A DNA stretch of 32,266 bases from an uncultured Cyclobacteriaceae bacterium (GTDB lineage: Bacteria > Bacteroidota > Bacteroidia > Cytophagales > Cyclobacteriaceae). The stretch's first letter is position 1. Each line of letters begins with the position of its first letter. This document shows positions 303 to 31,694 of the stretch, piece after piece. The notes under the pieces were generated by a model that saw nothing but the letters and a program-made list of their open reading frames with translations, had not been told where the DNA came from and ran no database searches. A program made the position numbers and the translations under genes. The stretch covers positions 1 through 32,266 of the forward strand of contig CALGOB010000195.1 of NCBI GenBank assembly GCA_937958005.1, written 5' to 3'.

Positions 303-1329
303 TTATTCAACAACCGAGCGGACATATTCCTGTTGGTTGAGTAATACAAACCTTATCCTGTTCAACATTTTCTTTGCTATCCTTATAATTGCTTCATTGG
401 GTTCCATTCTGCTACGGGGTTGGTTGTACTTTAAGGTCAGTGCGGGGTCATAGCGGATGGCTACCCAAGCTGACTCCACAATGGCCGACCTACAAGGCCC
501 TATTGGTCCTTTTTGTTATGCTTCCAGAGATCTCCTTTTCCCCAGATGAATGTGTCGAAGAGACCAGCTCAGAAAGGAAGGTCACCGCTACAATAAGCCC
601 GACACCTGGTATGCCCCTCAAGTATCCCAGGTCTTCGGCATATTGTGAATCTTTCTCCAATGAGCGCAATTGGCGGTTTACCTTTAAGAGTTTGCCCCTT
701 AAAAACCCTGCGGTCTCAATTGTTTCCCCAAGGACCATATTACCATATTGAGTAACCAAGGTTAGTTCCTTTAGCCAATTGGTAAACCTGCTTGACCAAT
801 ATTTTGAAGCCGTATTGAGTTCTTGGGGTATAGAAATCCCTTTTAAATAAAGCAACGGTTTAATCCTGTTCTTGTGCCTAAAGATCTCTTTCATTGTTGT
901 TTTTCTATACCTGACCAGGTCCCTTAATTCTTCCTGCTCCCTGCCCATGATATAAATCCCTGTCAATTCCCCGCTTTTCAGACCTTTTGCCAATTTTCGG
1001 CTGTCCCTTTTGTCCTCTTTTTGCTTCCTTTCCTTATCAGTGGTGGGAACATCTGCAGGATTGACCACTAGGTTAACAATATGGTTTTCCTCTAATTGGC
1101 GGTGTACACTAAAGCCACAAAAACCAGCTTCATACACTGAAAAATAACTGCCCCCAGGAAAATTCCTACGTAAATAGGCAGTCAGTAAATTGGCACTTGG
1201 GTCTTGTGAAAAGGATTTATAGATGACTTCACTAACTATAATTGTTATCGTCCAACTCTTCAAATGTACATCAATGCTCACATCAATGTTTGGTCCTTTG
1301 AAACTAATTGTTTTAACTTTCTTTTGCAT
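303..1329 (-). pseudogene. IS110-family transposase, broken (deletion and frameshift)
   Basis: The first part (1329 down to 490, 279 codons) encodes a DEDD RuvC-like N-terminal domain with likely catalytic residues D20 (IDVHLKSW), E67 (YEAG), D106 and D109 (DKRD), followed by the helix-hairpin-helix-like RGIPGVG motif of the Transposase_20 domain. Two lesions are visible. Near residues 255-259 the sequence jumps from TFLSEL to STHSSGEKE, skipping roughly 25-30 residues normally found there. An extra base at 492 then creates a TAG stop after KRTNRAL. Removing it restores 62 more codons, RSAIVESAWVAIRYDP through to a stop at 303-305, with the family's conserved MEPNEAIIRIAKKMLNRIRF stretch. IS110 recombinases move DNA using a bridge RNA; this copy should be inactive. 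The start ATG at 1327-1329 lies in a hairpin arm. Confidence 0.9.
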
Positions 1330-5644: not shown

Positions 5645-5755
5645 AAATGAACCAACCTCGACCCAAGGGTACGGGGTATCTATGGGCAATAATTTAATGA
5701 TCGACTCAAGTCGGGGCGCCCGGCCAGGGGAATTAATATCCCTTAGGGATTAAAA
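5645..5755 (+). repeat. Family A structured repeat, copy A1
   Basis: About 111 bp, starting AAATGAACCAACC and ending GGGATTAAA. Hairpin 1 pairs CCTCG with CGGGG around ACCC/GGGT (one T-G pair). Hairpin 2 is shortened to GACT/AGTC. Hairpin 3 is ATCCC/GGGAT. It carries an extra GC-rich piece (GGCGCCCGGCCAGG) after hairpin 2, similar in place to the extra piece in A3. The rest of the 5353-5967 gap shows nothing else I can support. Confidence 0.85.
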
Positions 5756-12440: not shown

Positions 12441-12538
12441 AAATGAACCAACCCCGACCCAAGGGTACGGGGTATCTATGGGCAATAATTTAATGATCGA
12501 CTCAAGAGTCGGAGAATTAATATCCCTTAGGGATTAAA
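12441..12538 (+). repeat. Family A structured repeat, copy A2
   Basis: At 98 bp this is the compact form. Hairpin 1 is CCCCG-ACCC-AA-GGGT-A-CGGGG (12452-12472). Hairpin 2 is GACTC-AA-GAGTC. Hairpin 3 is ATCCC-TTA-GGGAT. It sits alone in the 12263-12676 gap, between the convergent ureohydrolase-like region and the DUF58 operon end. Nothing else is recognised in that gap. Confidence 0.88.
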
Positions 12539-18854: not shown

Positions 18855-19012
18855 AAATAAACCAACCCTGACCCAGTGGCTCTGCTGAGAAAGCTACGGC
18901 ACTCGCAGAAGGGTACGGGGTATCTATGGGCAATTATTTAATGATCGACTCAACACCCGTGGATGAGTCGGGGTACCAGACCAGGGGAATTAATATCCCT
19001 TAGGGATTAAAT
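18855..19012 (+). repeat. Family A structured repeat, long copy A3
   Basis: At about 158 bp this is the longest copy. The extra sequence sits at hairpin tips and one junction: about 38 nt replaces the AA loop of hairpin 1, the hairpin 2 loop grows to about 11 nt while the stem lengthens to GACTCA/TGAGTC, and a CCAGACCAGG piece follows. Hairpin 3 (ATCCC/GGGAT) is unchanged. Hairpin 1 arms are CCCTG/CGGGG with one T-G pair. It lies 23 bp before family B copy B3, in the 18687-19316 gap upstream of the SpoIIM operon. Confidence 0.85.
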
Positions 19013-23015: not shown

Positions 23016-23432
23016 CTAAATATTACACAGCTGAACTTCGCAATTCAGTTTCTTACTAAAACCAGAAGCAATTTTATTGATCTCTTGATTATCCATTGTA
23101 TTCCAATAAATTGATATATATTTTTCTTCTAAAATTGCCTGGTTAATAATGGGATATAAAGTGAGTAATTTTTTTATTCCATCTAAATCAAATTGACTCA
23201 ACTTGATATAGATGTTTAAGTGACTTGCAAGCAAAAAATGATCTTTGATGCTTTTTATTAAATCGTTTAATTTATAATCATATTGTTTCCCATAAAGAGC
23301 ACCACGTATGGTGACTAGGTTCAGCTGTTCCGATAAACTAATGCGTAAACTGCTATTTTCTTTAGCTAGCATACGTCTTGTGGTCATTTCTGACTCCATC
23401 CTATTAAAAGTTTTTTTCCTACTATTTTCCAT
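23016..23432 (-). CDS. Small soluble protein, possibly SiaC/DUF1987-like (138 aa)
   Basis: After a basic, polar N-terminus (about 1-33) the protein has an alternating strand/helix pattern: LNLVTIRGALYGKQ, LNIYIKLSQFDLDGIKKLL, KYISIYWNTMDNQEI and a C-terminal CEVQLCNI. The order and the W.....D.E pattern recall SiaC (DUF1987) partner-switch regulators, but the phospho-acceptor Thr/Ser motif (YFNTSS-like) is replaced by QFDLDG, so the match is weak and phosphorylation at that site is unlikely. There is no neighbouring SiaA/SiaB gene. It has its own terminator. A plain hypothetical protein is the safe label. Confidence 0.65.
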   Translation of the reverse strand: MENSRKKTFNRMESEMTTRRMLAKENSSLRISLSEQLNLVTIRGALYGKQYDYKLNDLIKSIKDHFLLASHLNIYIKLSQFDLDGIKKLLTLYPIINQAILEEKYISIYWNTMDNQEINKIASGFSKKLNCEVQLCNI

Positions 23433-23839: not shown

Positions 23840-24190
23840 ATTTGGAGAGTTTCTCCTTTGTATTTCAGCGTAAAATGCTCATTAGTTAATCTGGTTAATT
23901 CACTTACTATATTTACGTGAATTACTTAGAAAAATAATTCATTTAATCAATTGATTATCAATTGTTTGATAAATTATTAAGACCCTATTTTGTCTTGTGT
24001 GAGTGTGTATGAAATTCATTAAGATAGAATAGTATTTTGTTCTTGCGTTTTTTCAATTTTCTATGACTGCTTCAACTGTCTTTATTCTGACGAATTAGAA
24101 TTACTGGCATCCAACTAAATTTCAATTTTAAGAAAAATGTCTCCTGAGTCAATTTAAATAAGGGTCTTTCCTTATCCTGAAAAACACCGT
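23840..24190. other. AT-rich gap, nothing recognised
   Basis: The only structure seen is a minor hairpin, GGAGA-GTT-TCTCC, close to the start of the small gene. No coding signal is seen on either strand. Confidence 0.4.
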
Positions 24191-24420
24191 TCCACGGCGG
24201 CCCTCTAGAATTGAGTAATCCTAAAATTAGAGGCTTTCTGCGGCGGCAGTCCGATTCATTTTTTCCATGCCGCGGGGGCGGACCCCTGAAAAAACAGAAC
24301 CGCGCGGACCGTCAAAAAAATCTACAAGGCCGCTTGGCGGTCAAAAACAACATGGTACGCCATCTCGGCTCTGCCGGGGTTTTTGACAGGCCAACCCTCC
24401 TGCATGAATATCTAAAAGTA
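24191..24420. other. GC-rich, highly foldable island of unknown origin
   Basis: Bases 24241-24400 are about 57% G+C, far above the surrounding AT-rich DNA. Hairpins include GCGGCA/TGCCGC (24243-24248 with 24268-24273) and, as an alternative, GGGG-CGGA-CCCC (24275-24286). A three-way junction is closed by GTCAAAAAC (24340-24348) and GTTTTTGAC (24379-24387); inside are ATGG-TACG-CCAT and CGGC-TCT-GCCG. An ORF reads through on the plus strand (24211-24447) but its product is low-complexity, matches nothing I know and runs into repeat A4, so I do not call it a gene. It could be a foreign element end, a structured RNA or a MITE. Confidence 0.5.
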
Positions 24421-24441
24421 GAAGTTTCGGGTAGGAAAACA

Positions 24442-24544
24442 CAATGAACCAACCCCGACCCAAGGGTACGGGGTATCTCTATCGGCCAAAAGCTTTTTTA
24501 TCGACTCAAGAGTCGGGGAATTAGGTATCCCTCAGGGATTAAAT
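24442..24544 (+). repeat. Family A structured repeat, copy A4
   Basis: About 103 bp. Hairpin 1 is CCCCG/CGGGG, hairpin 2 is GACTC-AA-GAGTC and hairpin 3 is ATCCC-TCA-GGGAT. The single-stranded middle differs most (ATCGGCCAAAAGC in place of ATGGGCAATAATT). It follows the GC-rich island with a gap of about 20 bp. Confidence 0.85.
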
Positions 24545-24993
24545 TATTTAATTGGATACCAGTAAATTAGAATTTTATAGTATTTGGAAAAAATAAGTCA
24601 AACTAATAAACCCACACAGCTCCGAGAAATACCAATCTAGATTTATAAGAAATCATTAGCAGAAACATCTTTATTCATTCAAATTTTCAAGTTATTGAAA
24701 TCAAGGAGAATTACTAGAGTTTATCACGATCTATTTTTATACTCTTAGGTTGCTGGCGAATGGTCTCTACAAAGGTGTTGACCTAACGGTGTTTTATTCC
24801 CTAGTAAATCTATTGTGATAATGATGGACGTAGTTTATACAAAAAGTATGAAAAAGATTAGAAAATATGCCCATGTACGTCCTATAAAGTTTATTAATTT
24901 CATATCGTTAGTATTTTAATTTGATATAAAATTAGCTCGACACCAGTTGATTTCTTAGCGTGTTTTTCTGAATTGGTTAAATACTGAATTCAC
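24545..24993. other. AT-rich gap downstream of the kinase operon, nothing recognised
   Basis: No ORF, no clear terminator and no repeat from the other families is visible. The kinase gene at 24994 therefore has no obvious intrinsic terminator. Confidence 0.4.
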
Positions 24994-31594: not shown

Positions 31595-31694
31595 TTTTAA
31601 TCCCTAAGGAATATTAATTCCTCGACTCTTGAGTAGGTCATTAAATTATTGCCCATGGACACCCCGTACCCTTGGCTCGGGATTGGTTCATTGA
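31595..31694 (-). repeat. Family A structured repeat, inverted copy A5
   Basis: The only copy on the minus strand, 100 bp. Read on its own strand, hairpin 1 is TCCCG/CGGGG (one T-G pair, plus a mismatch in the inner stem AGCC/GGGT), hairpin 2 is ACTC-AA-GAGT, and hairpin 3 is ATTCC-TTA-GGGAT (one T-G pair). It ends 24 bp before family C copy C2. Confidence 0.85.

Follow-up and report, generated by a model that had tools for sequence, protein, structure and literature searches.

Among described systems, the GC clusters of yeast mitochondria appear to be closest in behaviour to the small GC-rich modules reported here. With the clusters covered in PMC4478555, the modules share a short, GC-rich and palindromic sequence in AT-rich DNA, a scattered presence and absence, a constraint on the stem, changes in adjoining bases that are tied to presence, and merging and shuffling. 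The cluster treated in PMC4478555 is 42 nucleotides long, has a putative AG duplication and belongs to an organelle, whereas the modules are 12-17 bp long and bacterial, were seen only inside other repeats in the loci viewed, and often replace one base. By description rather than by sequence, the cyanobacterial small dispersed repeats (SDR; Elhai et al. 2008, as cited in PMC3116915) seem to be the closest bacterial system, the likeness lying in very small, possibly mobile repeats. SDR reportedly measure 21-27 bp and are said to nest in other repeats. A size of some 20 bp is given in PMC2884548. Since no insertion into single-copy DNA was seen in the loci viewed, the modules were not classed as GC clusters or as SDR.

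Other repeat families are comparable in single respects. REP sequences and REPINs, as presented in excerpts of PMC3733652 and PMC3116915, have in common with the modules a short palindrome with a short tail, and one type of module (type U, below) often stands as an inverted pair in a genome of the same order; in contrast to these elements, no GTAG or CGTC tag was seen in the modules, which measure 15-17 bp against 20-40 bp. No description of such modules in Bacteroidota was found in the literature available as openly licensed papers, among which PMC3733652 names Bacteroidetes at one point. The element that carries the modules resembles miniature inverted-repeat transposable elements (MITEs) in being short, non-coding and multicopy and in having terminal inverted repeats (TIRs) and target-site duplications (TSDs) of fixed length, but it differs from them in the optional hairpin modules of its interior, and its parent transposase was not found in the families searched.

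The DNA analysed here (the window) is a stretch of 32,266 nucleotides from an uncultured Cyclobacteriaceae bacterium, assembled as a draft of 267 contigs. Positions 24241-24400 are 57.5% G+C, which is the highest value among all 160-base stretches of the window taken in 10-base steps (mean 35.2%, sd 5.2%); just two stretches reach 56% or above. This agrees with the island of about 57% G+C in AT-rich DNA that a sequence-only reading had pointed out. The unit to which the island belongs exceeds the span considered in that reading, as the island is the interior of a 463-bp MITE-like element, A, which extends on the forward strand from 24102 to 24564 (about 368 bp without a nested element, B) and is flanked on each side by a 9-bp duplication. 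The left TIR, TACTGGCATCCAACTAAAT, at 24102-24120, has its inverted partner at 24546-24564 (TACTGGTATCCAATTAAAT as read on the reverse strand), so that the element runs from TACTGGCATCC to GGATACCAGTA, with ends of the type TACTRG...CYAGTA. The same nine letters, AATTAGAAT, stand at 24093-24101 and at 24565-24573, and duplications of this length are found at many sibling copies; the bounds of A were taken from the TIRs and TSDs and are borne out by copies elsewhere in the genome. A lies between a gene for a PAS histidine kinase and, downstream of it, a gene for a SiaC-like regulatory protein (23016-23432, reverse strand; 21.2 bits against a Pfam cut-off of 24.5). Elsewhere the window has a fragment of an IS110-type transposase gene (490-1329, reverse strand; Pfam DEDD_Tnp_IS110, E 1.2e-11) and, among its proteins, a Por secretion tail, which suggests Bacteroidota.

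Copies of A are dispersed through its own genome. A query with positions 24150-24560 gave at least 48 matched pieces among the 40 candidates scored out of 675; 33 of these pieces, counting the window's own, touch the A part and 15 represent B alone. The TIR motif was found at 170 sites genome-wide, compared to 11 for the reversed control pattern. When TIR pairs were called permissively in the fetched loci, 80 were obtained, of which 19 had identical flanking 9-mers and 5 more had 9-mers matching at eight of nine positions, while many of the remaining 56 are spurious chance pairings; some copies with good TIRs have no TSD. Exact 9-bp duplications surround the copies L180, L098 and L176, and they also surround L172, L090 and L051, which have little except B between the ends of A. 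Since such near-empty elements and short ones sit between exact duplications (L172, L090, L051, L176 and L180), the TIRs alone seem to be enough for mobilisation of A. A pattern for the intact TIR pair matched 1 of 293 genomes and the core motif (at most two mismatches) 1 of 98, in both cases the window's own, and as far as tested the A family appears to be limited to the source species.

The search for a transposase sharing the ends of the island, which the sequence-only reading had called for, gave none in either of the two families covered or beside lone TIRs. None of nine DDE_Tnp_1 (PF01609) loci had A-type ends around the transposase gene, although two of these nine stretches had such ends elsewhere, and none of 12 Y1 (PF01797) loci had A-type ends as its own. 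Three candidates near A ends were rejected. An ORF beside a TIR in L091 encodes a DUF6909 protein (Pfam), has no second TIR and was taken for a host gene. In L165, a Y1 gene found between A ends is part of another IS200-type element (L165:484-1345, equal to L151:1146-2007), which is nested in the right half of an A copy that has an exact 9-bp duplication; other copies match only that stretch. The OrfB-like gene beside a TIR in L192 is part of an element, its type judged by eye, that cut into A. L010, L184, L192 and L023 contain a piece of about 50-70 bp that matches the end of an element with an OrfB-like transposase (IS3-like by eye), or are cut by that element. Another copy, L193, consists of a subfamily-2 end joined to a subfamily-3 interior, which suggests recombination between copies of A.

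Nested within A is B, an element of about 95 bp at 24444-24538 on the reverse strand. In copies of A without B, position 24443 is joined directly to TTAAATT, which in the window stands at 24539; B is present at this identical point at three places (the window, C8 and C19) and other copies read through. B has at least 42 matches in the genome among the 40 candidates scored out of 587, and the window itself has further copies at 5647-5754, 12443-12538 and 31596-31691 (reverse strand), which are 74%, 85% and 78% identical in alignments of some 100 bases, as well as three short fragments around 18857-19012. None of 63 distinct copies in the fetched loci has a 4-bp duplication, and in 62 of the 63 a base A directly precedes ATG(A/G)ACC. 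In L152, a 151-aa ORF for a Y1 transposase (Pfam E 7.4e-34) is flanked by B-like ends, one of 35 bp at 97% identity and the other of 42 bp at 81%. B is thus a PATE-like, transposase-less relative of an IS200-type (Y1/HUH) element, to judge from the ends that it has in common with L152 and the lack of a TSD. With PATEs and other end-only elements of IS200/IS605, as outlined in PMC7290912, B shares palindromic ends of a Y1 element only, with no TIR and no TSD; it differs in its high copy number, and its putative target motif, TTTAA(T), which precedes B on the reverse strand and exists in copies of A without B, rests on one comparable empty and filled site. B has an optional GC piece of its own, CGCCCGGCCAGGGG, in 3 of 28 subfamily-1 and 13 of 30 subfamily-2 copies (L063, L074, L088-L090 and others; 5 of the 63 were unassigned to a subfamily), and the IS200-type L152 is without it.

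Six modules of 12-17 bp, mostly hairpins, account for nearly all of the island's G+C richness, which is thus probably not a property of the MITE itself. M1 (GTTCCACGGCGGC, 24189-24201) occupies site S1, M2 (CTGCGGCGGCAGTCCGA, 24238-24254) site S2, M3 (CCGCGGGGGCGGACCCC, 24270-24286) site S3, M4 (CGCGCGGACCGT, 24301-24312), which contains GACCG, site S4, M5 (CAAGGCCGCTTGGCG, 24325-24339) site S5 and M6 (ATGGTACGCCATCTCGG, 24352-24368) site S6. Removal of the six lowers the span of the sequence-only reading from 52.2% to 36.2% G+C, and A without B and without its modules is 33.9% G+C, similar to the window. Presence and absence were scored in 33 sequence contexts of the window's type, many of them cut by contig ends, so that any two may be halves of one copy. 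The module was absent from 4 of 23 readable contexts at S1 (filled in 19; 10 unread), 9 of 32 at S2 (filled in 23; 1 unread), 6 of 30 at S3 (24; 3), 14 of 28 at S4 (14; 5), 5 of 32 at S5 (27; 1) and 4 of 26 at S6 (22; 7), where the S2 count takes as empty three alleles ending in CTTTG (L175, L196 and L254) that had been captured too long. Single, partial and complete absences of modules were all seen among these contexts, and the empty alleles are alike across subfamilies, with a lone G at S2, A at S3 and C at S6.

Comparison of close sister copies showed that modules can differ with little change in the backbone. Thirteen short copies were each set against their best longer sibling, gaps of at least 8 bp being counted; three pairs were module-clean and tested statistically, and in the other ten the differences were larger or mixed blocks or pieces of other elements. 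L050 (293 bp) and L007 (368 bp) have an identity of 99.7% in 293 aligned positions (99.3% in 301 when flanks are included) and L180 and L098 one of 98.9% in 271, with five module gaps in each pair. The gapped segments are 72.5% and 79.7% G+C, respectively, compared to 34.1% and 36.8% for the short copies, which exceeds random segments of the longer copy (P 0.0008 and 0.0001), and a 4-bp stem without mismatch occurs in four of the five pieces of either pair, more than in length-matched random segments (P 0.0008 and 0.0012). The third pair, L176 and L030 (94.1% over 270, seven gaps), is weaker, with 61.9% G+C in the indels (P 0.003) and a perfect stem in one of seven (P 0.46); L176 has no modules but does have TIRs and an exact TSD. 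The copies closest to L050 all carry modules, in a comparison whose pattern strings show S2 of L196 and L254 as filled and to which L170 was added by hand; this argues for a loss of modules in L050. At the place of S3, 10 of 18 listed subfamily-2 copies have a module of the M3 type, and in 8 of the 18 a reverse-complemented M5, either exact or altered, stands three bases off; L180 has neither.

A few formats recur among the modules, two of which are defined here. Type U has the form N4-TNCG-N4'-CGCGG, with the stems GGGG/CCCC, ACGG/CCGT, ATGG/CCAT and GCGG/CCGC; all four stem pairs are formed in 54 of 69 contexts, many of which are copies of one another. M3 is of type U on the reverse strand, and M6 is one change away from the type U form ATGGTACGCCATCGCGG. 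Type R, to which M5 belongs, has the form N4-RNCG-N4'-tail, with the stems CAAG, CAGG, CTGC, CTGT, TGGG and CGGG, and as only perfect stems were listed for it, its count is no test of pairing. A perfect 4-bp stem is present in 12 of 15 module sequences, compared to 4.0 expected from summed shuffle rates, and two interleaved inverted repeats in 10 of 15, compared to 1.9 expected, in a set where several sequences are homologous and the boundaries were set by the analyst. In an alignment of 22 copies (23 core copies had passed and L128, with an extra insert, was left out), 95.0% of the stem cells are paired, and pairing drops to 35-50% when partners are slid by 1-3 columns. Both sides have changed in 8 of 29 stem pairs, which 2 of 500 shuffles reached, and the covariation score of the proposed stems was reached by none of 500, in shuffles that ignore the relatedness of the copies; pair types are no more numerous than in shuffles (323 of 500). 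Four of the six proposed local helices covary, and in the stems of M2 and M6 no pair is altered at both positions.

Within the genome, the same modules recur at unrelated sites. The type U pattern has 115 matches with at most one mismatch (reversed control 0) and the type R pattern 93 with at most two mismatches (control 2). M5 and its exact reverse complement stand at two different sites, the latter in subfamily-2 copies, and the common form of M6 reappears elsewhere, inverted, as a subfamily-2 module, with two changes that leave the stem intact. Type U is found across sites of A and, like type R, also in a repeat, C, whose backbone is by eye unlike that of A. Repeat C (L242-L246 and L252) is a third GC-rich repeat with variable GC pieces of its own, and its ends, CCTGAGTTCGATT and AATCGAGCTCAGG, resemble inverted repeats. 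Among 48 loci viewed, 47 of them with a type U match, no match lies in single-copy DNA and all lie in or beside A- or C-type repeats, as judged for this subset of the 115 matches by permissive TIR matches and shared flanks.

Further analysis of related genomes showed that the exact type U 15-mer pattern occurs in 27 of 117 genomes, including the source genome (89 matches, control 0), and is absent from 90. Of the remaining 26, the majority have between one and six matches, in some cases with no excess over the control (G071, with 4 and a control of 5); G218, which belongs to a different family of the order, has 33 (control 1), G076 has 12 (control 1) and G031 has 6 (control 0). Nine inverted pairs of type U in G218, 50-110 bp apart, form nine long hairpins (L320-L328), at places picked because they matched, with the 15-bp motif in both arms and the rest of the arms varying by place. 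Since these arms differ elsewhere and carry the same motif, type U is probably a unit beyond the source genome.

Taken together, the island is best explained, with a probability of about 0.7, as the core of the non-autonomous transposon A, in which B was nested later and whose G+C derives from modules, mostly hairpins, present in some sister copies and absent from others. The TIRs, the TSDs, the nesting, the presence and absence of modules, the covariation of stems and the recurrence of formats across sites, orientations and another repeat are seen directly in the copies. A would have been spread in trans by a transposase that acts on TACTRG...CYAGTA ends and makes 9-bp target duplications, and B would have inserted into A later. 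The modules may originally have been short mobile hairpins that were inserted into the AT-rich backbone, often replacing one base, and that would then have multiplied along with transposition of the MITE. Recombination between module-bearing and module-free copies could subsequently exchange modules or remove them together, as modules that loop out of a heteroduplex may all be repaired to one strand. Such an exchange is favoured by the fact that several modules change together on a constant backbone and that the same residual base returns, since repair to one strand would take several modules at once and let the same G, A or C reappear. The shared residual bases also argue that the empty form is old. 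Counting against this explanation, only 3 of the 13 short copies are module-clean, and the L176/L030 pair fits less well. The restriction of modules to repeats in the loci viewed likewise counts against free mobility, since mobile snippets should also strike unique DNA.

Several other explanations bear on the same observations. The modules could be original to the element, with short copies arising when hairpins are skipped and deleted in single-stranded replication, transposition or reverse transcription, which we regard as a possible but doubtful alternative. The simultaneous absence of five modules from L050 amid module-bearing nearest copies would fit such skipping, as would the homologous sites of modules in several subfamilies, and simple deletion could account for the L050/L007 junctions at S4 and S5. 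However, the junctions at S2, S3 and S6 in this pair hold a base for which simple deletion would not account, and it is the same base across subfamilies; skipping is disfavoured, as it would not restore this residual base. In addition, the hairpins have little stability when four modules are folded as DNA (-2.5 to -4.1 kcal/mol, the best fold mostly not being the drawn 4-bp stem), and different modules stand at nearly one place in otherwise similar copies. A far more improbable explanation is that short copies are collapsed or skipped reads, an artefact of assembly or sequencing. The draft state of the assembly is compatible with this, and L050, L034, L042, L164 and L170 are near contig ends and L180 begins 177 bases from one, but exact 9-bp duplications on both sides of L176, L180 and L098, several intermediate combinations of modules and the weakness of the hairpins speak against it.

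The sequence-only reading had proposed a switch-like RNA, and a cis-acting structured RNA (switch or small RNA) that is incidentally copied around would be compatible with some of the folding results. The compact three-way junction proposed for 24340-24387 was recovered on the forward strand by folding of 24326-24400 (z -1.9; 6 of 200 shuffles equal it), with the stem GTCAAAAAC/GTTTTTGAC enclosing the M6 and CGGC hairpins (arms ATGG/CCAT and CGGC/GCCG), and the covariation of stems would also fit a structured RNA. The strong hairpins held for this segment and for 24296-24400 (z -2.33; 5 of 200 shuffles as good) but not for 24238-24300, which alone folds at chance level (z -0.27; 79 of 200); the 260-nt island folds modestly beyond chance on the forward strand (z -1.53; 13 of 200) and at chance on the reverse strand (z -0.57; 50 of 200). 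The near repeat GTCAAAAA is indeed present at 24311 and 24340, as are GACCG (24307-24311) and CGGTC (24338-24342), and three terminator-like sites were found against 1.0 expected (sd 0.9), one being the M1 hairpin on the reverse strand and one the end of B. The helix between GACCG and CGGTC, however, is gapped on one side in 9-10 of 22 copies, and 74 of 500 shuffles reach its pair counts. The six promoter-like sites represent a chance number (mean 5.3), no Rfam family matches at gathering level in the whole window, and at E<=1 the island's sole match is to a snoRNA of nematodes (E 0.69; 17 bits, where the cutoff is 75). A single RNA read in a fixed sense does not agree with covarying helices that can be absent and are found in either orientation, and module-free L176 retains TIRs and an exact TSD. 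A stand-alone riboswitch or small RNA was thus rejected by Rfam, shuffled folding and the pair counts of the switch helix, and the copied-along variant is judged highly improbable.

The hallmarks of a mobile element would also be expected of a fragment of a known insertion sequence or of coding DNA, which is an unlikely source of the island: no ORF of at least 80 aa over the island or covering A is listed, plasmid, phage and viral-contig records gave no match to the island, and neither transposase family searched has its ends. The simpler explanation offered in the sequence-only reading, a foreign insertion, was half right. The island lies within an inserted transposable element with TIRs and a 9-bp TSD, while a foreign origin is not supported, given the window-like G+C of the 33.9% backbone and a family found only in its own genome among those searched.

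MITEs and IS200 relics are common, and the uncommon part of this locus is the removable GC hairpin modules. Ordinary deletion or transposition does not readily explain how, in a bacterial MITE, sisters with about 99% identity in their aligned parts can differ by five tiny GC pieces, each at a fixed site. A broader reading, offered tentatively, is that Bacteroidota carry mobile micro-hairpins of 15-17 bp as a bacterial counterpart of the mitochondrial GC clusters, which would be inserted in repeats with one base replaced, spread across backbones and be gained or lost jointly, possibly by repair of heteroduplex loops; in each, a 4-bp stem may be closed by an NNCG loop and followed by a tail that can pair with the side of the loop, which would give two interleaved inverted repeats. 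Should the modules prove mobile, few mobile DNA units described so far would be as small, and the movement of GC clusters, raised for yeast mitochondria in the 1980s according to PMC4478555, would become testable in a bacterium. The modules also represent a route by which structured GC-rich islands may arise in an AT-rich genome with neither foreign DNA nor an RNA gene involved.
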